From Anaerolineae bacterium (GTDB taxonomy: Bacteria; Chloroflexota; Anaerolineae; UBA1429), in assembly GCA_016928125.1 (NCBI GenBank), contig JAFGLK010000254.1, positions 1 to 19,020 on the forward strand: a stretch of 19,020 bases of DNA, written 5' to 3'. The notes below the pieces were generated by a model that ran no database searches, was not told where the DNA came from, and worked only from the letters and a program-made list of their open reading frames with translations. Made by a program: the position numbers and the translations under genes. Below are positions 1,052 to 19,020 of the stretch, one piece after another (within the stretch, counting starts at the first letter, position 1; every line of letters begins with the position of its first letter).

Positions 1052-1086
1052 CGGTTGACTCTGCAGGTCCGATGAAAGGGAGCGGT

Positions 1087-3729
1087 ATGGTCTCGAGTGC
1101 TGACATACGCAGCCATTTTCTGGCCTTTTTCGAGCAGCGGGGGCATACGGTTGTGCCGAGCTCTTCGCTCATCCCTGCCAACGATCCGACCCTCCTTTTC
1201 ACCAACGCGGGCATGGTGCAGTTCAAAGAGATCTACCAAGGCCTCGAGACGCGCTCCTACTCGCGCGCGGCTTCGTCGCAAAAGTGCATGCGTGTGAGCG
1301 GCAAGCATAACGATCTTGATGCGGTGGGCCCGTCTCCTCGCCATCAAACCTTCTTTGAGATGCTGGGCAATTTCAGCTTTGGCGACTATTTCAAAGCGCA
1401 AGCCATCGAGTATGCCTGGGCCTTTTTGACGCGTGAGATGGGCTTGCCTGCGGAGCGGCTCTATCCCACCGTGTACCAGGAGGATGACGAAGCGATCCGT
1501 CTCTGGCAAAAGATCGCGGGCCTGCCGGCGGCGCGCATCACCCGGTTGGGGAAGAAGGACAACTTCTGGGAGATGGGGGACACGGGCCCTTGCGGGCCCT
1601 GTTCCGAGATCCTGTACGACCGCGGCGCACCGGCTTGCAGTTGCGGCTCAGCGGACTGCAGCCCGGCGAGCGAATGCGACCGCTGGCTAGAGCTGTGGAA
1701 CCTGGTGTTCACCCAGTTCGACCAGCAGCCAGACGGCTCGCTCGTGCCCCTGCCCAACCCCAATATCGACACGGGCATGGGCCTGGAGCGCATCACAGCG
1801 GTGGTTCAGGGCGTAGACAACAACTATGACACCGATCTGTTTCTGCCCATCATGGAGCGGACGCGCGCCCTGCTGGGGGCCAGCGAGGCCGCCATGCGCG
1901 CCAACCTCGTGCCCTATCGCGTCATCGCCGATCACAGCCGTGCGCTGGCCTTTCTGATCGCCGACGGGATACTGCCGGGCAATGAGGGGCGCAGCTATGT
2001 GTTGCGCATGATCCTGCGGCGCGCGGCGCGCTACGGCAAGCTGCTCGGATTCGAGCGGCCCTTCCTGGCCGAGGCCGTCCAGGCTGTGATCGATAGCATG
2101 GGCGACCACTATACAGAACTGCGCGAGCGCCAGGCCTTCATCCGCGAGGCCATCACCCAGGAGGAAGAGCGTTTCCTGACGACCCTGACGGTGGGCCTCT
2201 CGCGCCTCGATGAGCTGGCCCAGCGCCTGCGTGCCAGTGGCAGCCAGCAAGTGCCTGGCGAGGAGGCCTTTCGGCTCTATGACACCTATGGTTTTCCGCT
2301 GGAGCTGACCCGGGACGCCGCCCACGAGCTGGGCCTGGCGGTGGATGAGATGGGCTTTCAGGAGGCCATGGCGCAGCAGAGGGAGCGCGCGCGTGGCGCT
2401 CAGCGCTTTGCGGCCGACGCAGAGGGCGACGCCTATCGTCAGTTCGCGCTGCCCAAGACCGTGTTCCTCGGGTATGAGTCTCTTTCAGCCCGCGCCAGGG
2501 TCCTGGCCATCGTGCAGGACGGCCAGAGGCTGAGCCTCGCCGAGGCTGGCAGCGTGGTGGACGTAGTGCTGGATGTCACACCGTTCTACGCCGAGGCCGG
2601 GGGGCAGGTGGGCGACACGGGCGAGCTGCGCGCCGAGTCGGGGCGCGCCCTGGTGATGGACACCGTGAGACCGGTGCCCGAGACAGTGGTGCATCGGGTG
2701 CGCGTGCGTGAGGGCCGGCTGGCCGTCGGCGCCAGCCTCGAGGCGGTGGTGGATCGGGAGCGACGCCTTGACATCGCTCGCAACCACACGGCTACGCACC
2801 TCTTGCACCGCGCGCTGCGCCAAGTGTTGGGCGAGCATGCGGCTCAGGCGGGCTCGTTGGTCGCTCCGGATCGGTTGCGCTTTGACTTTGCGCACCTTGC
2901 GCCCGTTTCCCAGGCGGAGCTCAAGCGCGTGTCAGAGATCGTGAATGCGGAGATCAGGGCGAACCGATCGCTCAGCACCCGCATCACCAGCTATGAGGCC
3001 GCCGTTCAGGCCGGCGTGGTTGCCCTCTTTGGCGAGAAATATGGCGATCAGGTTCGGGTCGTCCAGGTCGAGGGTTTCTCCGCCGAGCTGTGCGGGGGCA
3101 CGCACCTCCACGCCACTGGCCAGATCGGGGCATTCATTATCACGAGCGAATCGAGCATTGGGTCGGGGTTGCGCCGCATCGAGGCCCTCACCGGGCGAGG
3201 TGCTGAGGCCTATGTCTATACCCGCCTGGACCGCTTGGCGCGCATCGCCGACCTGGTGGCGGCCCGCTCGGGCGATGAGGTGGAGCGCGTCGAGACCCTG
3301 CTGACGGAGACGCGCGAGCTGCGTCGTACGGTGCACGAGCTGCAGCAGCAAGTGGCGCTGGCCCGGGTCGATGACCTGCTGGATCAGGCCGAAGAGGTCA
3401 AGGGCGTGCGTGTGTTGGCCTCCGTCGTGGACGCTGCGGATGTGGATACGCTGCGGAGTATGGGAGATCGCTTCCGTGACAGGCTGGGCAGTGCCGTGGT
3501 GGCGCTGGGCGCGCTGGTGGATGGGCGTCCGTTGCTGATCGTTGCTCTCACGCAGGACCTGATCGGTCGCGGCTTGAGCGCAGGCCAGATCGCCAAGCGC
3601 GCCGCTGCCATCATGGGGGGTGGGGGCGGAGGTCGGCCCGATTTTGCTCAGGCCGGTGGCAAGGAGGCCGCAGCGCTTCCCCAGGCCCTGACGGCTGTGT
3701 CGCGGATCGTGGCCGAATCGCTGCATTGA
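1087..3729 (+). CDS. alaS: Alanine--tRNA ligase
   Basis: Charges tRNA-Ala with alanine in the cytoplasm and edits mischarged Ser/Gly. From the preferred start it has 880 residues, normal for the family. The N-terminal class II catalytic core begins with the typical SSSLIPANDPTLLFTNAGM block. The editing domain carries the zinc-binding HTATHLLH (HxxxH) and CGGTH motifs. The C-terminal DHHA1 region ends with the glycine run GGGGGG and RPDFAQAGGK. Two in-frame ATGs exist, at 1072 and 1087. I prefer 1087 because GGGAG lies four bases before it and the first helix then starts as in other AlaS proteins. It heads a cluster with the next four genes; the gap to the next gene is only 40 bases without a clear terminator. 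Confidence 0.97.
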   Translation: MVSSADIRSHFLAFFEQRGHTVVPSSSLIPANDPTLLFTNAGMVQFKEIYQGLETRSYSRAASSQKCMRVSGKHNDLDAVGPSPRHQTFFEMLGNFSFGDYFKAQAIEYAWAFLTREMGLPAERLYPTVYQEDDEAIRLWQKIAGLPAARITRLGKKDNFWEMGDTGPCGPCSEILYDRGAPACSCGSADCSPASECDRWLELWNLVFTQFDQQPDGSLVPLPNPNIDTGMGLERITAVVQGVDNNYDTDLFLPIMERTRALLGASEAAMRANLVPYRVIADHSRALAFLIADGILPGNEGRSYVLRMILRRAARYGKLLGFERPFLAEAVQAVIDSMGDHYTELRERQAFIREAITQEEERFLTTLTVGLSRLDELAQRLRASGSQQVPGEEAFRLYDTYGFPLELTRDAAHELGLAVDEMGFQEAMAQQRERARGAQRFAADAEGDAYRQFALPKTVFLGYESLSARARVLAIVQDGQRLSLAEAGSVVDVVLDVTPFYAEAGGQVGDTGELRAESGRALVMDTVRPVPETVVHRVRVREGRLAVGASLEAVVDRERRLDIARNHTATHLLHRALRQVLGEHAAQAGSLVAPDRLRFDFAHLAPVSQAELKRVSEIVNAEIRANRSLSTRITSYEAAVQAGVVALFGEKYGDQVRVVQVEGFSAELCGGTHLHATGQIGAFIITSESSIGSGLRRIEALTGRGAEAYVYTRLDRLARIADLVAARSGDEVERVETLLTETRELRRTVHELQQQVALARVDDLLDQAEEVKGVRVLASVVDAADVDTLRSMGDRFRDRLGSAVVALGALVDGRPLLIVALTQDLIGRGLSAGQIAKRAAAIMGGGGGGRPDFAQAGGKEAAALPQALTAVSRIVAESLH

Positions 3730-3769: not shown

Positions 3770-5032
3770 ATGTTTAGGTTGAGGCGCAGAAGCGATCCGC
3801 TGCCTGCCGCATCGGTGCGGCATCAGAGCGTCATCACCTGGGAAAACGGGCATGTGCGCGCCGCCGTGCTACAGCTGGGCGAAGGGACGGCGGAGATGGT
3901 GGGCGTTTCGGCGGCGCCGGTGCAGGGCATCAGCCGTACCACGCATCCCGACGTGGACCGGTGGCACGCCGGCTGCGAAGAGGCCCTCAGCCAGGCGGAG
4001 GACATGACTCCCAAGCTCTGCGGACGCAAAGTCGTGCCCGACCATGTGACCATGAGCCTGCCCGCCGAGATCACCCGGAGCCTTCCGGTCACCGTTGCGC
4101 AGCAACGTCGCAACGGACAGCGCCCGGTCACCCTGGATGAAGTCAGGCGTCTGGTTCTGCGCAGCTTTCGCACGGCGCAAGACTTGCTCGGCGCTGAGGC
4201 CAGCCAGGGCGAAGATATCGTCCACGGGTCTGTGGTGGCGACGATCCTGGATGGGCGCGCTGTCAACGATCCCTTGGGCCTACATGGCGAAGAGCTCGAG
4301 CTGCGGCTCTGCTACCATGTGGCGCCGCTAGAGTGGATTCGCGCCCTCGAGACGGTCGCGGCGCGAATGGAGTTGGTCCTGATCTGTCTCGTCCCTCAGC
4401 ACGTGGCCTATGCAGCCTCGCTCCGGGATCCCAGGGCGCTGCTTCTGCTGCTCGACGAAGGTCACACCACGCTCTCGCTCGTGCGTGGCGGGCGGGTTGA
4501 GGCGACGGCGTTGTGCGAGCACGGCGCTCGCGAGATCATCGATGCGGTGGGCGCCGTGTTGAACCTGCGTGGCAGGCAAGCTGAGGCACTGGTGCGGGCC
4601 TTTCGAGCGGACCAACTGCGTTCCGATTTCTCGCTCTATGTGGCGCGCACCTTCTGGGTGGAGTTGCGCCGCTGGATGTCGGCCCTGGCCCGGGATGTTC
4701 TGGCCATGACTCGCGATGAGGGGGTCCCGCTCCGCATCTACTGTCAGGACCTCTCGCGGCGGCTTCCTGAAGCGCTGCAGGCGCTGGAGACGCCCTTCTG
4801 GGAGCAATCCCTGGCACTGGGATCTTGTCCCGAGGTTGAGGAGCTCAACATTAGCCTTTCGCGCAATGTGCTCGACTGCACGGCGCAGGCCGCCGATCGG
4901 GGCTATCTGATGCTGCGTGCCCTGGCCGGCGATGTGGCGCAACGCCATGCGCAGGATATGGCGCTCGAGCGGTGGTTGGCCGAGATCGTCTGTTCGCGCC
5001 GGCCGCCGCTGTCGTTGCGCCGATCGCGCTGA
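3770..5032 (+). CDS. FtsA/PilM-like actin-fold protein with degenerate nucleotide site
   Basis: 420 residues with the domain order of FtsA/PilM-type actin-like ATPases. An N-terminal strand pair (about 21-40, ITWENGHVRAAVLQL) sits where phosphate-1 lies. An SHS2/1C-like segment follows (about 90-215): a conserved strand near VTMSLPAE, a long helix, then HGSVVATILDG, DPLGLHGEELELRL and VPQHVAYAAS. The phosphate-2-like strand is LLLLDEGHTTLSLVRGG (225-241), and the rest is helical. The usual DIGGGTTD is reduced to DEGHTTLS, and no GG-type adenosine motif is visible, so ATP binding may be lost or unusual. There is no signal peptide or membrane span; it should be cytosolic, perhaps membrane-associated through a partner. 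The start lacks a clear Shine-Dalgarno. The next gene encodes a bitopic membrane protein, an arrangement like PilM with PilN. Fold is fairly sure; role is unknown. Confidence 0.72.
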   Translation: MFRLRRRSDPLPAASVRHQSVITWENGHVRAAVLQLGEGTAEMVGVSAAPVQGISRTTHPDVDRWHAGCEEALSQAEDMTPKLCGRKVVPDHVTMSLPAEITRSLPVTVAQQRRNGQRPVTLDEVRRLVLRSFRTAQDLLGAEASQGEDIVHGSVVATILDGRAVNDPLGLHGEELELRLCYHVAPLEWIRALETVAARMELVLICLVPQHVAYAASLRDPRALLLLLDEGHTTLSLVRGGRVEATALCEHGAREIIDAVGAVLNLRGRQAEALVRAFRADQLRSDFSLYVARTFWVELRRWMSALARDVLAMTRDEGVPLRIYCQDLSRRLPEALQALETPFWEQSLALGSCPEVEELNISLSRNVLDCTAQAADRGYLMLRALAGDVAQRHAQDMALERWLAEIVCSRRPPLSLRRSR

Positions 5033-5047
5033 CATAGAGGAGGTCGG

Positions 5048-6556
5048 TTGGGTCCCGTTCAAGTCATCTTGCTGACACGTCACGACACGGTAGATACGGC
5101 CTGCCAGCTACTGCGTAGCGCCACGAGTGGGGCGCAAGTCTGGATGGTGATTCCCTGGCGCAATCGTATCGCTGGAACCCTGTTCGATCTGAAGCGTCTG
5201 CGTCACGTGGCTGCCGCAGCGGCGCTCGACCTGCGCATCGTATCCGGCCGGCTGCGCACGCGCACCTTGGCCCGCGAGGCCGGCATCCGCACGCGAGTGA
5301 GGCTGCCTTGGCGGCTGCTCAAGTATCGGCGACACCGTGCGCCGGCCAAGCTTGGCGCAGGGGGGAGGCTGGTAGCCACTCGCGAGCAGGTCAAGCGGCG
5401 CGCGCGAGGCGAGCCAGCCTCGCTCACCTTTGGTGCCGCCTTGCTCACCCTCCTGCTTGTGGTGTTGCTGGCAGCCACCATGCTCGCCACAGCGGCGGCC
5501 CTGGTGCCCAGCGCCACAATCCAGCTTGAGCCGCTGGCGGAGCCGGTGGAAGCGCGTTTTGATCTGACGGCCAGCCCGGCCTATGCGGGCATCCAGTATG
5601 CGCAGGCTATCGTGCCCGCGCGCATCATCGACCTGGTGATCGAGGGCCGCGGAGAGACTCCTACGACGGGCACGATCTGGGTCAAGGAGAAGCACGCCTC
5701 GGGGAATATCGTGCTCGTGAACCGCACCGATAGTCCGGTCTTGGTGCCCAAGGGCACGATTGTGCGCACCGGCAGCGGCGTCAATCTGCGCTTCTACACC
5801 GTAGCGGATGTGGAGCTGCCTGGCCAGGTGTATGCCCACCGACGCATCGGCATCATCGCCCTTGAACCTGGAGAGGAAGGCAACGTCGACGCCCTGACGA
5901 TCAGCGTGGTTGAGGGCGAGAATGCCCACCTGGTTGATGCGATCAATGACACCCCTACCTCCGGCGGCGAGGACGTTACCAAGTATGTGGTCAAACGCGT
6001 CGATTTCGAGACCCTGCGAGAGGATCTCAAAAAGAAACTCGAGAATGACGCCTATGATCAGTTGATGGACAGCCTCGAAGAGGAAGAGTTCGTGCCCCGG
6101 GAATCGATCCGGGGCGAGATCGTGAGTGAGGACTTTCATCAGGTGCTAGACGAGCAGACCGATGTGCTCTCGATGGATATGCAGGTGCGCGTGACGGCCG
6201 TGGCTGTGGATGGCAAGGCCATTGAGGAACTGGCCAAGCGCTTTCTCGAGTCGGGCTCCGATCGGGAGCTGCAGGTGGTGCCGAGCAGCCTGTCTATACA
6301 GCGCTCGGAGGACGTCGAGGTGAGCGGCAATGAGGTGCGTCTGTCCGTCGTGGCGCGCGGCGCCGTGGCCGAGACGATCGACGTGGAGCGCATCCGCCGC
6401 GCCGTGCGTGGCAAGGAGCTGGACCAGGCCTCGGCGTGGCTCAGCCAGCAGTATGATCTCAACCGGCAGCCCGAGCTAGAGGTCACACCCGATCTCTGGG
6501 AACGCATGCCCCTGCTCCCGGCTCGCATCGAGGTCAAGATCCTGGCTGGCGTGTGA
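5048..6556 (+). CDS. Bitopic membrane protein with baseplate J/gp47-like ectodomain
   Basis: 502 residues, starting with TTG at 5048 behind AGGAGG four bases upstream. Three parts can be seen. Residues 1-95 form an alpha/beta, possibly Rossmann-like, cytosolic domain (strands VQVILLT, AQVWMVIP, LDLRIVSG). A very basic linker (about 80-122) precedes one strong membrane helix (about 126-153). A large outside part of about 350 residues follows. Within it, residues 216-305 resemble the baseplate J/gp47 domain (GNIVLVNRTDSPVLVPKGT, then a GEEGNV turn). The basic linker puts the N-terminus inside. It lies 15 bases after the actin-like gene and its stop overlaps the ruvX start. I see no phage genes nearby, so it is probably an envelope protein rather than a tail baseplate. 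Function unknown. Confidence 0.7.
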   Translation: MGPVQVILLTRHDTVDTACQLLRSATSGAQVWMVIPWRNRIAGTLFDLKRLRHVAAAAALDLRIVSGRLRTRTLAREAGIRTRVRLPWRLLKYRRHRAPAKLGAGGRLVATREQVKRRARGEPASLTFGAALLTLLLVVLLAATMLATAAALVPSATIQLEPLAEPVEARFDLTASPAYAGIQYAQAIVPARIIDLVIEGRGETPTTGTIWVKEKHASGNIVLVNRTDSPVLVPKGTIVRTGSGVNLRFYTVADVELPGQVYAHRRIGIIALEPGEEGNVDALTISVVEGENAHLVDAINDTPTSGGEDVTKYVVKRVDFETLREDLKKKLENDAYDQLMDSLEEEEFVPRESIRGEIVSEDFHQVLDEQTDVLSMDMQVRVTAVAVDGKAIEELAKRFLESGSDRELQVVPSSLSIQRSEDVEVSGNEVRLSVVARGAVAETIDVERIRRAVRGKELDQASAWLSQQYDLNRQPELEVTPDLWERMPLLPARIEVKILAGV

Positions 6557-6981
6557 TGCGCTATCTGTGTTTGGATGTGGGCGACGAACGTATCGGCGTG
6601 GCGATCAGCGACGAGCTGGGCGCGCTGGCCCGTCCGTTGGAGGTGCTACGTCGAGCGAGCGGCCCGGGCAGCTTCCAGCGCCTGGCAGAGCTGGTGCATG
6701 AGTATGAGGTTGGCATGCTGGTGGTGGGTCTGCCCCTTCTGGAGGATGGAACTGAAGGGGAGCAGGTGCGTTCGACGCGTGCGTATGTCCGAGGGCTGCG
6801 GGGTCACGTCGATTCGCCGATCGTTTTCTGGGATGAGCGTGACAGCACCAAGCGGGCTGAGGAGATCATGAGCATCAATCGTCGAAGCAGGCGCCGTCGC
6901 CAGGGGGGCCTCGATGCCGTTGCGGCGGCTGTGATTCTGCAGAGCTACCTGGATGCACAGACTGGCGAGGGCGGCGCATGA
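6556..6981 (+). CDS. ruvX: Holliday junction resolvase-like RuvX/YqgF nuclease
   Basis: 141 residues with the RNase H-like fold of the YqgF family, implicated in pre-16S rRNA 5' processing and Holliday junction resolution. The first catalytic Asp is D7 in LDVGDERIGVAISD. The middle strand gives VVGLPLLEDG. The second acidic site is in WDERDST (93-98) and the last is D120 in LDAVAAAVIL. The second motif is usually DERLTT; here it is DERDST. The ATG at 6556 shares one base with the upstream TGA, and a GTG one codon earlier is also possible. Its stop overlaps the mltG start in ATGA, so the three genes are very likely translationally coupled. Confidence 0.92.
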   Translation: MRYLCLDVGDERIGVAISDELGALARPLEVLRRASGPGSFQRLAELVHEYEVGMLVVGLPLLEDGTEGEQVRSTRAYVRGLRGHVDSPIVFWDERDSTKRAEEIMSINRRSRRRRQGGLDAVAAAVILQSYLDAQTGEGGA

Positions 6982-8132
6982 GCAAAGTGCTGCGCATCTC
7001 GCTGCGGCTTGTCACGCTGGTGCTGGCTCTTTCGGCGGTGCTCTTGATGATCACGGGCGGTTTCTGGTACATGTGGACCAACGCCCAAGACAAGGCGCCG
7101 CGCGTCGAGCTCGAGATCACGCCGAGCAGGATCGAGCATCTGGTGCTGGGCGCATATCTCCGCTATCGCGGCGAGGAGGTTGCGCGGCCGGCCAATCCGG
7201 ACGATGAGCGCGAGATCCCCTTTATCGTAGAGCCCGGCGAATCCGTGAGCACCGTGGCGTATCACCTCCAGCGCGATGGCTTGATCAGCGATGCCGAGCT
7301 CTTTCGTCGCGTGGTGCAGTATTGGGAGGCCGACGGTGATATTCAGGTGGGGGTCTATACGCTAAGGCCCAACATGACGATGGAGGAGATCATGCAGCAG
7401 TTGCAGCATGGTCGCCTCCCAGAGATCGAGCTCACCATCGTCGAGGGTTGGCGCATCGAGCAGATCGCGGAGGCGCTTGAGCAGGCGGGGGTCACCACAG
7501 CCAACGCCTTCCTCGCGGCCGCCAGCGTGCCGCGCACCGAGTTCGCTTTCCTGGCGGACCGCCCCGCGGGCAGCCCTCAGACGTTGGAGGGCTTTTTGTT
7601 CCCTGAGACGCACAAGCTGCCCCTAGGCGCGCGGCCCGAGCAGGTGATTGACATCATGCTGCGAACTTTTGACCGCCGCGTCCCGGAGGAGCTGCGACAA
7701 AAGGCCGCCGAGCACAACCTGACGTTCTATGAAGCCATCACGCTGGCTTCGATCGTCGAGCGAGAGGCTGTGGTCGCCGAGGAGCGTCCGGTCATCGCCA
7801 GCGTCTACCTGAACCGCCTGAAGGAGGGCATGTATCTGCAGGCCGATCCGACGGTGCAGTATGCCAAGGGCTACAGCCCCGACACGGGAAAGTGGTGGAA
7901 TCCGACGACCTTGGAGGAATACGCCGAGGTGATCTCAGCCTACAACACCTATCTCAACCCGGGGCTGCCGCCAGGGCCGATCTGCAATCCAGGCCTGGGC
8001 TCGATCATGGCGGTGCTCGAGCCGCCTGCCAGCGAATACCTCTTCTTCGTGGCCAAGGGAGACGGCTCGCATGTGTTCGCTGTGACGTATGAAGAACACC
8101 TGCGCAACTATGAGTTGTACAGCGGACGCTAA
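6978..8132 (+). CDS. mltG: Endolytic murein transglycosylase MltG
   Basis: Membrane-anchored lytic transglycosylase that cleaves nascent peptidoglycan strands and is thought to end glycan polymerisation. It has 384 residues. The N-terminal membrane helix spans about 10-32, and the rest is extracytoplasmic. A LysM-like part is seen around PFIVEPGESVSTVAYHL (81-97). The YceG core has GFLFPETHKLP (205-215), the catalytic Glu E261 in LASIVEREA, then SVYLNRLKEGMYLQADPTVQY and GLPPGPICNPG, and ends near the usual FVAKGDGSHVF. An extra segment of about 40 residues lies between the anchor and the LysM-like part. It overlaps ruvX by four bases. Peptidoglycan synthesis is therefore expected in this organism. 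Confidence 0.95.
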   Translation: MSKVLRISLRLVTLVLALSAVLLMITGGFWYMWTNAQDKAPRVELEITPSRIEHLVLGAYLRYRGEEVARPANPDDEREIPFIVEPGESVSTVAYHLQRDGLISDAELFRRVVQYWEADGDIQVGVYTLRPNMTMEEIMQQLQHGRLPEIELTIVEGWRIEQIAEALEQAGVTTANAFLAAASVPRTEFAFLADRPAGSPQTLEGFLFPETHKLPLGARPEQVIDIMLRTFDRRVPEELRQKAAEHNLTFYEAITLASIVEREAVVAEERPVIASVYLNRLKEGMYLQADPTVQYAKGYSPDTGKWWNPTTLEEYAEVISAYNTYLNPGLPPGPICNPGLGSIMAVLEPPASEYLFFVAKGDGSHVFAVTYEEHLRNYELYSGR

Positions 8133-9327: not shown

Positions 9328-10383
9328 ATGCATGTGGTCGAGCTTTTGCGCGAGCTCTCCGATTCTCATGGCGTGTCCGGCTATGAGGCGGCGCCGCGCG
9401 AGATCGCGCGCCGGGCGATGGAGCCCTATGTGGATGATGTGCGCGTCGATGCGCTCGGCAATCTGATCGCATGGCGGCGCGGAGAGCAGGCGGAGGCAGC
9501 CCCGCGGCGCTCGATCATGCTCGCCGCCCACATCGACGAGATCGGCCTGATGGTCACAGGCCTGGACGCGGGATTCATCCGGTTCACGAATGTGGGCGGT
9601 GTAGACTTGCGCACGATCGTCGGGCAGGAGGTGATGGTGCATGGCACGCGCTCGCTGCCAGGGATCGTGGCCAGCCTCCCGCCGCACGTTCTGACGGCAC
9701 AGGAGCGCGAGCAGCCCATTCCTCAGGAAAAGCTCTTCATCGACATCGGCTATGCAGCGGACGAGCTGAAGCAGCTGGTGTCCATCGGCGACCTGATCAC
9801 CCTGCGACGCGAGATGCTCGAGCTCTCTGAGGGTTATGTGGCGGGCAAGGCCTTTGACGATCGCACGGGGGTGGTGGCCATGGCGCTATGCTTGGAGACC
9901 CTCAGCGGGTTGCGCCATACGTGGGATGTGTATGCCGTCGCGACGACGCAGGAGGAGGTGGGCCTGCGCGGCGCGCTGGTCAGCGCCTACGGCATCGCCC
10001 CTAGCGCGGCGATCGCCATCGATGTGGGCTTTGGGCAACAGCAGGGCGTCAACGAGACCGAGTCGATCGCCATGGATGGCGGCCCGGCCATTGCCATGGG
10101 GCCTAACATCCATCCGCTCATGCAGCGCCGCCTGGTGAGCACCGCCAAGCAATACGAGCTCAAATATCAGCAGGAGGTGGCCGAAGGGCGCACCGGCACC
10201 GATGCCTGGGCCATCCAGGTGACGCGCGAGGGCATCCCTACGGCCTTGCTCTCCATTCCGCTGCGCTATATGCACACCAGCGTGGAGACGGTGAGCATCC
10301 GCGATATCCAGCGCACCGCGCGCCTCATGGCGCTCTTTATTGCTGGCCTCGATGCCGATTTTGCCGCTGAGCTCGGATGCTGA
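9328..10383 (+). CDS. M42 family metallo-aminopeptidase, first copy
   Basis: 351 residues. M42 (TET/FrvX/PepA-like) enzymes are cytosolic di-metal aminopeptidases that assemble into large tetrahedral particles and trim peptides. All expected metal and catalytic sites are visible: AHIDEIG (H68, D70), the bridging Asp in KAFDDRTG, catalytic and ligand Glu in TQEEVGLRG (E209/E210), D232 in IAIDVGFG, and the last His in RYMHTS (H316). The GTDAWAIQ block replaces the usual GGTDA. The start is fixed by AGGAGGTGA seven bases upstream. It begins a three-gene operon of paralogues. Substrate range cannot be read from sequence; some M42 proteins have been annotated as endoglucanases, which I consider unlikely here. 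Confidence 0.93.
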   Translation: MHVVELLRELSDSHGVSGYEAAPREIARRAMEPYVDDVRVDALGNLIAWRRGEQAEAAPRRSIMLAAHIDEIGLMVTGLDAGFIRFTNVGGVDLRTIVGQEVMVHGTRSLPGIVASLPPHVLTAQEREQPIPQEKLFIDIGYAADELKQLVSIGDLITLRREMLELSEGYVAGKAFDDRTGVVAMALCLETLSGLRHTWDVYAVATTQEEVGLRGALVSAYGIAPSAAIAIDVGFGQQQGVNETESIAMDGGPAIAMGPNIHPLMQRRLVSTAKQYELKYQQEVAEGRTGTDAWAIQVTREGIPTALLSIPLRYMHTSVETVSIRDIQRTARLMALFIAGLDADFAAELGC

Positions 10384-10399
10384 GGGGAGGAAGAGAGTG

Positions 10400-11443
10400 A
10401 TGTTGCTCAAAGAGCTGTCCGAAGCCCGGGGGGTCTCCGGCAACGAGGGTGCGGTCCGCAAGCTGATCCAGGCTGAACTCGATGGTCAGGTGGACGAGCA
10501 ACGCGTTGACGCCCTGGGCAATCTCATCTGCGTGAAGAGAGGCACGGGCGACGGCTCGACCTGGCCGCACAAGGTGATGGTCGCCGCCCATATGGATGAG
10601 GTCGGGTTCATCATTAACGGCTTTAACGGCGATGGCACGCTGCGTTTCGCTCAAGTGGGCGGCCTGGATGATCGCATCCTGCTCTCCAAGGCGGTCTTGG
10701 TGGGCGAGAAGGCGGTGCCGGGCGTTATCGGCTACCGGCCCATCCATCTGATCCCACGCGCTGAACGCAGCAAGGTGGCCGATATGAGCAAGGCCGCCAT
10801 CGACATTGGCGCCACAAACCAGTCCCAGGCGGAAAAGCTGGTTAGTGCGGGTGACTATGTCTCCTTTCGGACCTCCTACCAAGTCCTGAGCGAGGAAGGG
10901 CTGCGAACCGTCAAGGGCAAGGCCTTTGACGACCGGGCAGGATGCGCCGTGCTGGTGGAGTTGCTCAAAGAGAGGTATGCCTACGATGTGGTTGGCGTTT
11001 TCACCGCACAGGAGGAGGTGGGCCTACGGGGCGCGCGGGTGGCTGCCTATGCGCTGGCCCCCGACGTGGCTTTTGCGCTGGAGGGCACCATCTGCGCCGA
11101 TCTGCCCAACGAGAGGGATGTGAGCCCGGTGACCGAGTTGGGCAAGGGGCCGGCTATCACGCTGATGGACCGCTCGTTCATCGCAGACCGGCGGCTGGTC
11201 CGTCTGCTGACCGAGGCGGCCGAGGCCGAGGGGATCCCGTATCAGTTCAAGCGCGCTGCGGCGGGCGGCACCGATTCAGGCGCCATCCACCTGGCCCGAG
11301 AGGGCGTGCCCTCGGTCACGGTGGCGGTGCCCTGCCGCTACATCCACGCGCCGGTGAGCCTGCTCAGTCTGGAGGATCTCGACAACACGCTGGCGCTGAT
11401 GAAAGCAGCGCTACAAAGACTCGAACGGGGGCTAGGGTCGTGA
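10400..11443 (+). CDS. M42 family metallo-aminopeptidase, second copy
   Basis: 347 residues, paralogue of its two neighbours and cytosolic. Motifs are AHMDEVG (H64, D66), KAFDDRAG, AQEEVGLRG, AAGGTDSGAIHLAREG and RYIHAPVS. The fourth ligand position reads ALEGTICADLP, with Glu where the other two copies have Asp; this variant is known within M42. The frame is open upstream into the first copy, but ATG at 10400 sits after a purine-rich GGGGAGGAAGAGAG and starts exactly at the family N-terminus, so I use it. It begins 16 bases after the first copy and its stop overlaps the third copy by four bases, which indicates coupled translation. Confidence 0.93.
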   Translation: MLLKELSEARGVSGNEGAVRKLIQAELDGQVDEQRVDALGNLICVKRGTGDGSTWPHKVMVAAHMDEVGFIINGFNGDGTLRFAQVGGLDDRILLSKAVLVGEKAVPGVIGYRPIHLIPRAERSKVADMSKAAIDIGATNQSQAEKLVSAGDYVSFRTSYQVLSEEGLRTVKGKAFDDRAGCAVLVELLKERYAYDVVGVFTAQEEVGLRGARVAAYALAPDVAFALEGTICADLPNERDVSPVTELGKGPAITLMDRSFIADRRLVRLLTEAAEAEGIPYQFKRAAAGGTDSGAIHLAREGVPSVTVAVPCRYIHAPVSLLSLEDLDNTLALMKAALQRLERGLGS

Positions 11444-12432
11444 AAGAACTCATCAAGCAACTGGTGGAAACGTGCGGGCCCTCAGGGCAGGAGGGCCAGG
11501 TGCGCGCCCTGATCGAGGGGCTTGTCGCTGAGACGGCCGACGAGGTGCGCGTGGATGTGATGGGCAACCTCATCGCGCTCAAGCGAGGCAGCGGCGGAGG
11601 CGAGCGCATCATGGTGGCGGCTCACATGGACGAGATCGGCTTGATCGTTACCCATGTGGACAAGCAGGGCTTTATGCGGTTCGCTGCCGTGGGCGGCGTG
11701 CGGCCGCAGACCCTGGTGGGGAGCCGGGTGCAATTCGTGAAGGGACAGCAGGGGGTGATCGGCTGGGAAAAGTGGCTCGAGGCCAATGCCCTGCCCAAGG
11801 ATGAGGAGCTCTTTATCGATGTGGGGGCCGCCTCGGCAGATCAGGCGCCGGTGGGCGTGGGCGATCAGGCCTGCTTTGTGCGCCCCTTGGTCGATCTGGG
11901 CGAGCGCATGGTCTCCAAGGCCATGGATGACCGCATCGGCTGCGCCGTGGCCATCCAGACCCTGCTTAATCTCGGTAGCAGCCCGAACGAGGTCTACTTT
12001 GTGTTCACCGTGCAGGAGGAAGTGGGCACCCGCGGGGCGATGGTCTCCGCGTTCGGTCTCGAACCCGAGGTAGGGCTCGCAGTTGATGTGACCCCGGTAC
12101 GCGACACGCCCGAGGCGCGGCCCATGGCGGTGTCTCTGGGGGAGGGGCCGGCCATCAAGGTGATGGATTCGGGTGCATTGACTCATCCCGGCGTCAAGCG
12201 CTGGATGATCAACACGGCTGAAGCCCTGGGGGTCCCATATCAGTTGGAGGTGCTGCAGGCGGGCGGCACCGATGCGCGCGCCATTCAGCAGAGCCGGGCT
12301 GGCGTGCCCTCGGGCTGCCTTTCGATTCCCTGCCGCTATGTGCACACGCCGTCCGAGATGGTGGACTATGGCGACGTGCAAGGCGCCGTGCGGTTGCTCG
12401 GGGCGCTGTTGGCCAACGAGGTCGCGATCTGA
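11440..12432 (+). CDS. M42 family metallo-aminopeptidase, third copy
   Basis: 330 residues from the GTG at 11440, whose GTGA overlaps the upstream stop. The open frame extends 5' to 10942, but that part lies inside the second copy in another frame and is not protein-like. Motifs are AHMDEIG (H62, D64), KAMDDRIG, VQEEVGTRG, AVDVTPVRDTPE (Asp ligand), LQAGGTDARAIQQSRAGVPS and RYVHTPSE. It is slightly shorter than the other two and resembles the classical FrvX/YsdC type. Three diverged copies in one transcript suggest either a hetero-oligomeric particle or complementary substrate specificities; this is inference. Confidence 0.93.
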   Translation: MKELIKQLVETCGPSGQEGQVRALIEGLVAETADEVRVDVMGNLIALKRGSGGGERIMVAAHMDEIGLIVTHVDKQGFMRFAAVGGVRPQTLVGSRVQFVKGQQGVIGWEKWLEANALPKDEELFIDVGAASADQAPVGVGDQACFVRPLVDLGERMVSKAMDDRIGCAVAIQTLLNLGSSPNEVYFVFTVQEEVGTRGAMVSAFGLEPEVGLAVDVTPVRDTPEARPMAVSLGEGPAIKVMDSGALTHPGVKRWMINTAEALGVPYQLEVLQAGGTDARAIQQSRAGVPSGCLSIPCRYVHTPSEMVDYGDVQGAVRLLGALLANEVAI

Positions 12433-15027: not shown

Positions 15028-15092
15028 AGCCACTCTGCACATTGCCAAAGGCGCTAGCGTGGCGCGGCGTAGGCCGCGCAGGGGGGAGGACG

Positions 15093-16556
15093 ATGGACTC
15101 CAAGTCTCGAGATGGTCGGCCGCAGGTTCTGCGAATGCTGATCCCACTGCTGTTGTTCCTGAATATCATCGTCTGGGCGCTGCCTGTGCTGGCCAAGCCC
15201 ACCGAGCCCGACATCCTCTCCTTTCAGGATCGCTGGGATCCGAAACCCAGCCCCACCTGTCCAAGCCCGACCTCCAGCCCCACGGCCACCTCCTGTCTGG
15301 CCAGTCTGCATCTCGACGATCTGATCGACTGGCATGACCCGCTTTGCGCGGGGTGGCGCCAGCGCTACACCATCTCGTTCACCAACGATGGGCAGGTGGC
15401 GCTCACCAACGTGATCGTGCGGGCACTCATCGAGGAGGACACCGAGTTTGATCTGGACGATTGCAGCGAGGGGCTGATCGTGGACGGGCCATATGAGGCC
15501 CGCTGGATGATCTCAGAGATCGCACCGAGCGAAAACGTGGTGCTTTACCTGGAGATCAGGGTCTGGTTGAGTTGGCCTGAGGGCTCGATTCTGACCACCT
15601 GCGTCGACGTGAGCAGCGACCAACTGCCCGGTCAGACTGTCTGCGCAGAGACCGAGATCGAGCAGTGCGAGACGCCTTCGCCGACGCCAAGCGAGACGCC
15701 CAGCGACACGCCGACGCCCAGCGACACGCCGACGCCCACCAACACACCCTCGACCCCGGTCCCCGGCGACACGCCAACGCCCACCGACACGCCCTCGGCG
15801 CCGACCAACACGCCGACGCCGACCAACACGCCTGGGACACCGACGCCGAGCCTTACGCCGTCGCCCACACCCACGCCGATCGTGGATTGCTTTGTGTCGT
15901 CGCCCGGGTTCGACCGCATCTATCGTGTGGACGCCAGCCTCTTCCGTGGCTACGATGGCAGTTCATCGGGCGATTATCCGATGCACCTGATCACCTCGCC
16001 GCCCGCGCCCGTTGGCTGGAATAGCGCGGGCTACGTGCCCGACGCGAGCTGGGGCAGCCCGTCGCCGGTCTTCTGGGGCGCCTGGGCTGGCCCCGGGTGG
16101 AATGTGGTTCCCGAGGGCGCAGTCATCGAGGGCCTGCTGCAGGCAAGCGGGGCGCCCGAGGGGGTGGATGGCACCACGCACCTGCTGTGGCGTCAGATCA
16201 CGCTGACGCCGCCCGGTCCGGGCTGGGAGGCGGGTGAGAGCTGGCTCGATATGTGGAGCGACAACAAGACCGCCTGGTGGTGGAACGGGACGCTGGTGAT
16301 GAGCGAGCGTCAGGGACAGATCGGACGGGTCGATCTGATTCCGGGCACTCACCTGGATGCCTTGGGTGGGAGCTATTCGCTGGCTGTTCAGAACAGCAAC
16401 GACTATATGCGCGTGGAGAATCCCCAGGGCACAGCCTACCGTATGTGCGTCACCTGGGTGTACCAAGGACCGATGGAGCCGAGCCCGACGCCCTCGCCGT
16501 GGCCGCCCATCACACCGGATCTCTGGTTGCCGCTCTATTTTGGCGTGCCCAGGTAG
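15093..16556 (+). CDS. Secreted surface protein with DUF11-like domain and Pro-Thr stalk
   Basis: 487 residues. The start is ATG at 15093 because GGGGGGAGG lies three bases upstream; the frame is open back to 15042. Residues 1-35 form a signal peptide (basic, then [19 protein letters not shown]). A Cys-rich beta domain follows (about 65-190), with [18 protein letters not shown] typical of DUF11-like conserved repeat domains. A Pro-Thr stalk occupies about 194-262. A C-terminal beta-sandwich-like domain (about 264-465) has a DN...W.NG pattern ([12 protein letters not shown]) and [10 protein letters not shown], as in many carbohydrate-binding-like folds. A short second SPTPSP linker leads to the end [11 protein letters not shown], which resembles the YLPLV-type tails I associate with Anaerolineae surface proteins. 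Likely exported and wall-associated; the ligand is unknown. Confidence 0.78.
15672..15880 (+). repeat. Pro-Thr stalk coding repeat
   Basis: Low-complexity repeats built on ACGCCSACGCC units encode alternating TP, PT, DTP and NTP. An 18-base unit occurs as an exact tandem pair at 15701-15736. Such tracts are prone to slippage, so stalk length may vary between strains. Confidence 0.85.
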
Positions 16557-16941: not shown

Positions 16942-18120
16942 ATGCGTATCACACGGATCGAGATCTTCGACCTGCAATTCGACGAGGCGCCGACCTGGCA
17001 CCCGATCATCCTGCGCGCCCACACCGACGCGGGGCTGAGCGGTCTGGGCGAGGTGGGCCTGGCCTATGGTGTGGGCCACTCGGCCGGGGCCGACATGGCC
17101 CGCGAGCTGGCCGAGGGGTTCGCCCTGGGCGCCGACCCGTTCAGGACCGAGTGGCTGTGGGACGAGATGTTCCGCAAGACCTTCTGGGCGCAGGGGGGCG
17201 GGCCGGTGGTGTTCGGGGGCATGAGCGCCATCGACATGGCCTGCTGGGACCTCAAGGCCCAGGCGCTGGGCGTGCCGGTCTACCAGCTCCTGGGAGGCAA
17301 GACCAATGAGCGCCTGCGCACCTACGCCAGCCAGATTCAGTTCGGCTGGGGGCCGGCGCGCCAGGTGCTCACCACGCCCGAAGAGTACGCCGAGGTCGCC
17401 CGCGCGACGGTGGCCGAGGGGTACGACTGCGTCAAGATCGACCCCGTCATCTTTGACCTGGAGGGGAATCGGGCGGCGATGAACCTGCGCGGCGTGCTCC
17501 CGCCCGACAAGGTGCGCCTCTTCCGCGAGCGCATCGCCGCCGTGCGCGAGGCCGTCGGCCCGGACGTGGACATCATCCTGGAGCTGCACTCCTTCCTGGG
17601 CACGCCCGCCGCGATCCAGCTTGGCCAGGCCTGGGAGGAGTTCGCCTGCTTCTACTACGAGGAGCCGGTGCACTATCTCAACATGGAGCTGCACAACCTG
17701 GTGGCGCGCAACGTCAAGATCCCCACGGCGGCCGGGGAGCGCATCTACACCCGCTGGGGCTATCGCGAGTACTTTGAGAAGCAGGCCCTGGCGGTGATCC
17801 AGCCCGACCTGGGACTGGTGGGCGGGCTGAGCGAGGGGAAAAAGATCTGCGATTACGCCCACGTCTACGACATCACGGTGCAGGCCCACGTATGCGGCAG
17901 CCCGGTAGCCACGGCGGCGGCGCTCCACCTGGAGGCGGCCATCCCCAATTTCCTGATCCACGAGCACCACACCAACGCGATCAAGCCCTACAACCGGATG
18001 ATCTGCGAGCAGGACCTGCAGCCGGATCGGGGGCAGTTCGCGATCCCCGACGCGCCGGGGCTGGGTGTGACGCTCAACGAGCGACTGATGGCCAGGATGC
18101 CGAGGGTGGTGGTGGAGTAG
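16942..18120 (+). CDS. Enolase-superfamily sugar-acid dehydratase (mandelate racemase/GalD-like)
   Basis: 392 residues, start fixed by AAGGAGG four bases upstream. Cytosolic Mg-dependent enzyme that abstracts the proton alpha to a carboxylate; most relatives dehydrate sugar acids. The N-terminal cap domain (1-120) ends with AIDMACWDLKAQALGVPVYQLLGG. In the barrel: CVKIDP (K165, D167), ELH (E214, H216), YYEEP (E240/E241), GERIYTRWGY (E266), QPDLGLVGG (D289) and VQAHVCGSP (H316). The ELH and GERxxxRW patterns and the C-terminal FLIHEHH block place it near D-galactonate-dehydratase-like proteins rather than true mandelate racemases. No transporter or regulator is adjacent, so the substrate cannot be deduced. 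Its codons look more C/G-ending than those of several neighbours. A 41-base segment (17468-17508) recurs downstream. Confidence 0.9.
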   Translation: MRITRIEIFDLQFDEAPTWHPIILRAHTDAGLSGLGEVGLAYGVGHSAGADMARELAEGFALGADPFRTEWLWDEMFRKTFWAQGGGPVVFGGMSAIDMACWDLKAQALGVPVYQLLGGKTNERLRTYASQIQFGWGPARQVLTTPEEYAEVARATVAEGYDCVKIDPVIFDLEGNRAAMNLRGVLPPDKVRLFRERIAAVREAVGPDVDIILELHSFLGTPAAIQLGQAWEEFACFYYEEPVHYLNMELHNLVARNVKIPTAAGERIYTRWGYREYFEKQALAVIQPDLGLVGGLSEGKKICDYAHVYDITVQAHVCGSPVATAAALHLEAAIPNFLIHEHHTNAIKPYNRMICEQDLQPDRGQFAIPDAPGLGVTLNERLMARMPRVVVE

Positions 18121-18194: not shown

Positions 18195-18223
18195 TTGCCC
18201 GTTGTGACAGCCGGTGATACAAT
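18195..18223 (+). promoter_or_regulatory. Promoter for the hicB-like gene
   Basis: TTGCCC (18195-18200), 17 bases, then TACAAT (18218-18223) with the TGA extension directly before it. The start of transcription would be near 18230, about 26 bases before the ATG. Confidence 0.55.
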
Positions 18224-18255
18224 GTCAGGAACGGACGGTCACTGGGAGAATCGGC

Positions 18256-18477
18256 ATGAAAGAGTGTCAGTTCACAATCATCATCGAGCGTCAGCCAGAG
18301 GGTGAGTACTTGGTGACGGTTCCTGCCCTGCCCGGTTGCTATACCGAAGGCAGCACGCTGGAAGAGGCCCGTGAGATGGCTACTGACGCGATCCGCGCCT
18401 ATTGTGCCAGCCTGGTCAAACACGGGGAGCCGATCCCGTGTGACTCTTGCGAGGAGCAGTACATCGGGCGGCGATGA
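18256..18477 (+). CDS. HicB-like antitoxin, orphan
   Basis: 73 residues with the HicB-like antitoxin fold: a beta strand FTIIIERQPEGEYLVTVPALPGC, then YTEGSTLEEAREMATDAIRAYCASLVKHGEPIP. In type II HicAB modules such proteins bind and block the HicA mRNA interferase. ATG at 18256 is chosen because GGGAG lies seven bases upstream; the frame is open to 18214. Relatives usually continue for several residues after GEPIP with a hydrophobic strand. Here the tail is CDSCEEQYIGRR, and the last codons lie in a segment copied from the enolase-superfamily gene, so the natural C-terminus may have been replaced. No HicA with its usual GSHH-type motif is found on either side. Confidence 0.75.
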   Translation: MKECQFTIIIERQPEGEYLVTVPALPGCYTEGSTLEEAREMATDAIRAYCASLVKHGEPIPCDSCEEQYIGRR

Positions 18478-18503
18478 ACCTACGCGGCGTGCTGCCGCCC
18501 GAC
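18463..18503 (+). pseudogene. 41-base remnant of a second enolase-superfamily gene
   Basis: Matches 17468-17508 inside the enolase-superfamily gene at 39 of 41 bases. In that gene's frame it encodes RAAMNLRGVLPPD, and both differences are synonymous third-position changes in Leu codons. Similarity stops at both ends. It overlaps the hicB stop. It is best read as a scrap of a diverged paralogue rather than a recent copy. Confidence 0.6.
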
Positions 18504-18644: not shown

Positions 18645-19020
18645 CTACCCGTCGCCAAGACGCTCAAAGAGCGAATCCACCCCCCACAGCGCCACACCAT
18701 ACTGTGCCATCGCGCTGCGCAGCTCGTCATCTGCTCGCAGGTCGGCATCGCCGGTCACGATCGCTTCGGCCCCACCGTCTATGGCTGTGGCGAGCACCGG
18801 GTGATCCTCGGGGTCGCGGCAACGAGGTGGCACCGTGACGAGTTCGACCAGTTCACCGCGAAAGCGCAGTTGCTCAAGCAGTCGCTCCGCATCCTCTGCC
18901 CTAATTCGCTCCCGCAGCCGTGGACGCCTCCAGACTCGATCCAGTTCGTCCACCAGAGCCTGGCTTACCACGATAGTGAACCTGCGCGCGTACCACGCTT
19001 CCAGCAGAGGAAGGGTGATA
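18645..19020 (-). CDS. PIN-domain toxin-like protein, 5' end beyond the window
   Basis: 124 residues are visible, and the frame stays open on the reverse strand to the window edge. A GTG at 18971 would give 108 residues, but the codons before it read LLEAWYARRFTIVVSQALVDEL, exactly the conserved early part of COG1569-type PIN proteins (putative toxin components). The true start is therefore outside, about 20 residues further, with the first catalytic Asp (DTN motif). Visible acidic sites are the Glu/Asp of VDELD, the Asp of CRDPEDHPVLATA and that of IVTGDADL. PIN toxins are Mg-dependent RNases. No antitoxin is seen inside the window on its downstream side; one could lie outside. The 167 bases between hicB and this gene hold nothing else. 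Confidence 0.85.
   Translation of the reverse strand, partial: ITLPLLEAWYARRFTIVVSQALVDELDRVWRRPRLRERIRAEDAERLLEQLRFRGELVELVTVPPRCRDPEDHPVLATAIDGGAEAIVTGDADLRADDELRSAMAQYGVALWGVDSLFERLGDG

Follow-up and report, generated by a model that had tools for sequence, protein, structure and literature searches.

Several bacterial machines combine an actin-like protein in the cytosol with a bitopic membrane partner: FtsA acts on FtsN, and PilM on PilN. In GspL/EpsL, a component of type II secretion, a cytosolic actin-like fold that binds nucleotide poorly or not at all is linked to a bitopic protein, the two being fused in GspL. The order alaS-ireB-ruvX-DUF1292-mltG is found in Firmicutes. Here we describe two adjacent genes, A and B, that lie between alaS and ruvX-mltG in a 19,020-nucleotide (nt) stretch of a Chloroflexota genome (Anaerolineae bacterium, contig JAFGLK010000254.1; hereafter the window). 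A is an FtsA paralogue found in Chloroflexota and separate from the FtsA that the cell also encodes, and its pairing with the bitopic protein B goes well beyond chance. In the window and its closest relatives, A is probably a pseudo-ATPase, judging by its nucleotide motifs. Searches of the open-access literature brought up no paper whose title or abstract opening describes the A-B pair or an FtsA paralogue in Chloroflexota.

An FtsA paralogue and its membrane neighbour

The five genes alaS, A, B, ruvX and mltG form a tight run on the forward strand, with 40 nt between alaS and A and 15 nt between A and B, while the B/ruvX and ruvX/mltG boundaries touch or overlap. An earlier reading of the DNA from its letters (the sequence-only reading) had recognized this run as one cluster of alaS, an actin-like gene, a bitopic gene, ruvX and mltG, and its coordinates were confirmed. 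Pfam identifies alaS, RuvX and YceG/MltG with scores above their cut-offs. It had also assigned A a cytosolic actin fold of the FtsA/PilM type. Against the FtsA profile TIGR01174 the window A scores 33.1 bits (E 3e-8; curated cut-off 175.85); it has no match to the PilM profile TIGR01175, and a search of the PDB with the single A sequence returned no match. The predicted structure bears the assignment out, as A is FtsA-like along almost its entire length, including an FtsA-type 1C subdomain; EpsL is also among its fold matches (E 3.8e-7). When ten A relatives were scored with TIGR01174, nine reached at most 118.2 bits and the tenth (L085) had no match, all below the cut-off. Seven A proteins with an intact ATP site score 81-118 bits with the FtsA profile versus 25-39 bits with the PilM profile (cut-off 133). 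The proposed likeness to PilM thus holds for the fold, but by profile scores A is nearer to FtsA.

In a tree of A (86 of 144 rows left after thinning, with several long branches) the A rows separate from the canonical FtsA rows, and canonical FtsA is encoded in addition to A. While A shares the actin fold and 1C subdomain with FtsA, it differs in its sub-cut-off score, its other locus, its coexistence with canonical FtsA and, in the clade of the window, its lost ATP site. The C-terminal amphipathic moment (best/shuffled) is 0.76/0.52 for 107 A proteins with intact motifs, 0.74/0.54 for 16 FtsA proteins and 0.66/0.56 for 13 lost-site rows.

All three nucleotide motifs are present in 16/16 canonical FtsA rows. 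At the A locus they are all intact in 107 of 127 rows, all lost in 12, and partial or cut in eight, three of which (L180, L201, L204) are so classed owing to missing sequence. This count began with 131 A rows, 108 of them fully intact, from which four off-locus rows were removed: L084, a canonical FtsA with intact motifs; L083, which is FtsA-like but not near alaS and has partial motifs; and second copies in L081 (lost) and L203 (partial). The 12 all-lost rows make up what we call the window clade (the window, L001-L009, L045 and L046). In the 55-row alignment A1 (the window plus 54 of 62 other matches; a further alignment, A2, holds the window plus 32 of 33 other matches), the glycine of the adenosine motif is replaced by Asp (D327) in 55/55 rows, the phosphate-2 glycines are mostly absent, and 26 columns are invariant. 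The register of the phosphate-1 hairpin is uncertain by two residues, and E25, present in 51/55 rows, may stand for the Asp. In the window clade, the actin-like protein of the sequence-only reading has lost its ATP site.

B matches the Baseplate_J family (PF04865) with 23.2 bits, just above the gathering cut-off of 21.1, and has no match to PilN in Pfam at E<=1. Its AF2 model (pLDDT 85.4, pTM 0.50) contains a single membrane helix, which agrees, as does the Pfam match, with the sequence-only description of a single-pass protein with a baseplate-J-like ectodomain. The notion of a bitopic partner for A stood up in its membrane topology but needs amending in two respects, as the cytosolic part of B contains a folded domain and B often lacks A. 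Relative to Baseplate J/gp47, with which it shares the baseplate domain, B adds the N-terminal domain and the membrane helix and resides in a chromosomal housekeeping cluster. We considered whether B might belong to the baseplate of a phage or contractile-injection system and rejected this, given its membrane helix and its place among alaS, A, ruvX and mltG. In five loci of one group with large genomes (L050, L052, L053, L054, L135), B has approximately 455-520 residues ahead of the membrane helix, compared with approximately 110-260 in most other B proteins.

The pair resembles PilM-PilN of type IV pili in placing a cytosolic actin-fold protein beside a bitopic one. A is below the PilM family cut-off, however, B carries a cytosolic domain of its own, and the neighbours of A are alaS, B, ruvX and mltG rather than pilN/pilO or other pilus genes. 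GspL/EpsL shares the actin-like cytosolic fold, but here two genes replace the fusion seen in GspL and the ectodomain differs.

Distribution and history of the pair in Chloroflexota

We examined 150 loci, comprising nine named Chloroflexota/Anaerolineae records, 120 loci picked by an A match, 20 picked as having B without A, and the window; two of the 120 (L083, L084) are weak matches outside the cluster locus. Cluster-type A was present at 127/150 loci. At 125 of these, the gene after A is B in the same orientation, the two matches being separated by a median of 62 nt; the only clusters with A and no B are the other two (L071, L190), where the contig ends just past A. The neighbourhood search suggested with the sequence-only reading therefore came out in favour of a pair conserved over much of the phylum. 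AlaS is encoded at 120/127 A loci; of the remaining seven, five reach the contig end first, and L049 and L171 show no alaS in the upstream DNA examined. The complete order alaS-A-B-ruvX-mltG was found at 98/150 loci. At L073 and L169 the downstream DNA continues, yet ruvX and mltG are both missing, and the same is true of mltG at L076, L077, L173 and L198; all remaining clusters that lack downstream genes are located at or close to a contig end.

Among the 20 loci picked for having no A, 16 read alaS-B-ruvX-mltG, a divergent A is present at one (L085), and the other three are incomplete. In genomes with neither A nor B, 20 mltG loci were inspected; both genes were absent at E<=0.01 from all of them (20/20), and here nine loci had alaS-ruvX-mltG directly, four ruvX-mltG and seven mltG only. 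The gene orders, namely the core, the core with B, and the core with A and B, are therefore nested. At the genome level, an A match (E<=2.5e-15) is present in 119 genomes, and 117 of them match B as well. Of the other two, G059 (L075) has a B beside A that is detected with a refined profile, and G347 has a contig that stops at A. Two of the 119 (G178, G327) lie outside the locus inspection. A B match with no A match at that threshold occurs in 152 genomes. Because the phylum scans, including those for FtsA and MurG, scored no more than the 3 to 5 top candidates of each genome, absences are upper bounds; one genome counted in the B-without-A set (G093, L085) in fact carries the divergent A. Two 8.9 Mb genomes carry an extra A copy elsewhere, with no B or alaS nearby (L081 9318-10604, L203 5509-7863); the L081 copy lacks the ATP motifs and the L203 copy is partly decayed.

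On a tree of AlaS (86 of 126 rows kept), eight lost-site rows form a single clade (support 100), which groups with L085, whose A is partly decayed, and with six rows that lack A (support 98). The partly decayed L082 joins the A-less L103 and L104 (support 98), and the A-less rows require four changes overall. In our reading, A has probably decayed and disappeared more than once while B was retained, the alternative being gains of A.

Association with cell wall genes and possible function

The presence of the pair follows that of peptidoglycan genes. B occurs in 259/346 genomes with MurG versus 6/49 without, and A (E<=2.5e-15) in 116 of the former (n=346) versus two of the latter (n=49). MurG was called at E<=1e-10 and may be overcounted, since 212 of the 346 matches fall under the curated cut-off. 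All six MurG-negative genomes with B have MltG, and so neither A nor B is found in any of the 39 genomes lacking both MurG and MltG matches. As 38 of these 39 have a canonical FtsA match (E 6e-54 or better), presence of A and B tracks the wall and not FtsA. This is consistent with PMC10608941, which describes an S-layer-like wall 'instead' and reports that Dehalococcoidales and SAR202 retain ftsZ and ftsA side by side. The envelope link put forward from the sequence is borne out as far as co-occurrence goes.

We consider it fairly probable that A works in the cytosol as an FtsA/PilM-type adaptor for B, which would act in the wall through the ectodomain carrying the baseplate-J-like fold; we infer contact between A and B and binding of A to the membrane. 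Originally A was probably an actin-like protein, bound to the membrane and switched by ATP, that gathered or ordered B, because most sampled A lineages keep the ATP site and an apparently amphipathic C-terminal helix. In the window clade, A would have been retained without its ATP site as a nucleotide-free scaffold, and in neighbouring lineages A would have gone and B continued alone. Distances between loci (84 loci, given AlaS) support some coupling of the two, with a covariation (r) for A-B of 0.556, the highest of six pairs, compared to 0.43 for B-ruvX, 0.273 for A-ruvX and 0.199 for ruvX-MltG.

Several results limit this account. Without the window clade the A-B value drops to 0.344, below that of B-ruvX (0.439). 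Kinship confounds the co-occurrence with peptidoglycan genes, as the 39 genomes are mostly 1-2 Mb in size and probably represent few lineages. The weakest step is a direct action on MltG, as in the coordination of peptidoglycan cutting suggested by the sequence-only reading. MltG is present in 74/80 MurG-positive genomes with neither A nor B and thus requires neither of them, and given AlaS neither A nor B follows MltG in its distances (A-MltG -0.136, B-MltG 0.053). We regard this step as doubtful.

A broader proposal, which we offer tentatively, is that Chloroflexota possess a second, wall-dedicated FtsA system in which an actin-like ATPase, separate from the FtsA of the Z-ring, organizes an envelope protein derived from baseplate J. 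Four of its states might then be visible, namely ATPase with B, pseudo-ATPase with B, B alone and neither, and the FtsA-type protein of the window clade may work without nucleotide. If so, the pair would be a further branch of the design represented by FtsA-FtsN and PilM-PilN, conserved over a large and poorly studied phylum, and one that accompanies peptidoglycan genes rather than FtsA. The graded series, in which the site is intact, the site is lost or the gene itself is lost, would make the role of nucleotide in FtsA-type proteins testable, and a phage-baseplate-like fold would have been put to use in the envelope of ordinary cells.

A could instead be a division factor, a second FtsA that enters the Z-ring, with B recruited to the divisome like FtsN, the adjacency to mltG being only inherited order. 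FtsA is indeed the nearest fold and family of A, but neither A nor B was found in the 39 genomes that lack MurG and MltG matches, nearly all of which have FtsA, and we consider this reading unlikely, although a septal wall role is compatible with it. We find it improbable that A is a relic in the window clade, where first the ATP site and then the gene decays and B alone does the work. The loss of the ATP motifs, the sister lineages without A and the rate of change are what such decay would leave: the mean distance inside the clade (eight loci) is 0.95 for A versus 0.459 for AlaS, so that A is approximately twice as fast relative to AlaS, whereas outside it (76 loci) the two are about equally conserved (0.863 versus 0.888). 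In the window and at the 11 other loci of its clade, the A frame nevertheless stays open wherever it was matched, residues such as D327 have newly become invariant, and in the one close pair compared (L006/L009) the dN/dS of A is approximately 0.09 (dN 0.059, dS 0.65), similar to that of B (0.074; dN 0.058, dS 0.78). That A and B belong to a pilus or secretion machine, in the manner of PilM/PilN, is most improbable despite the shared arrangement, considering the low PilM scores of the seven intact A proteins, a cluster with no pilus gene, and the folded N-terminal domain and baseplate-J-like ectodomain of B.

Feature coordinates and other genes of the window

Table 1. Positions of the cluster genes and of features within A and B (window coordinates)
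Feature	Position	Strand	Evidence
alaS, alanyl-tRNA synthetase, upstream gene of cluster	1072-3729	+	PF01411 684 bits, above cut-off (Pfam)
A, FtsA-paralogous actin-fold protein, 420 aa	3770-5032	+	
A, former phosphate-1 hairpin, residues 23-28, TWENGH replacing DxG[TS]	3836-3853	+	
A, former phosphate-2 loop, residues 227-234, LLDEGHTT replacing D[IV]GGGTTD	4448-4471	+	
A, former adenosine motif, residues 326-328, QDL replacing GGG	4745-4753	+	
Shine-Dalgarno-like GAGGAGG ahead of B	5037-5043	+	sequence
B, bitopic membrane protein, 502 aa, TTG start	5048-6556	+	PF04865; AF2 model
B, cytosolic alpha/beta domain, residues 1-95	5048-5332	+	
B, membrane helix, residues 128-151	5429-5500	+	single long helix in model coincides with hydrophobic segment
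B, phage baseplate-J fold (gp47/gpJ) within ectodomain, residues ~213-310	5684-5977	+	model
ruvX, Holliday junction resolvase family	6553 (GTG) or 6556 (ATG) to 6981	+	PF03652 136 bits
mltG, endolytic transglycosylase (YceG/MltG)	6978-8132	+	PF02618 292 bits; TIGR00247 221 bits

Downstream of the cluster, the window encodes a 504-aa protein (15042-16556) with a Pro/Thr-rich repeat stretch, which has no Pfam match at E<=1e-5 and resembles a surface protein. Three M42 glutamyl aminopeptidase paralogues are arranged in tandem at 9328-10383, 10340-11443 and 11428-12432 (PF05343, 280-294 bits each). A HicB-like antitoxin gene (18214-18477, +) is followed by a convergent PIN-domain gene (18645-19019, -) that is cut by the window end. 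A 41-nt direct repeat with 95% identity occurs at 17468-17508 and 18463-18503, 995 nt apart, one copy lying within a mandelate-racemase-like gene and the other at the end of the antitoxin gene.
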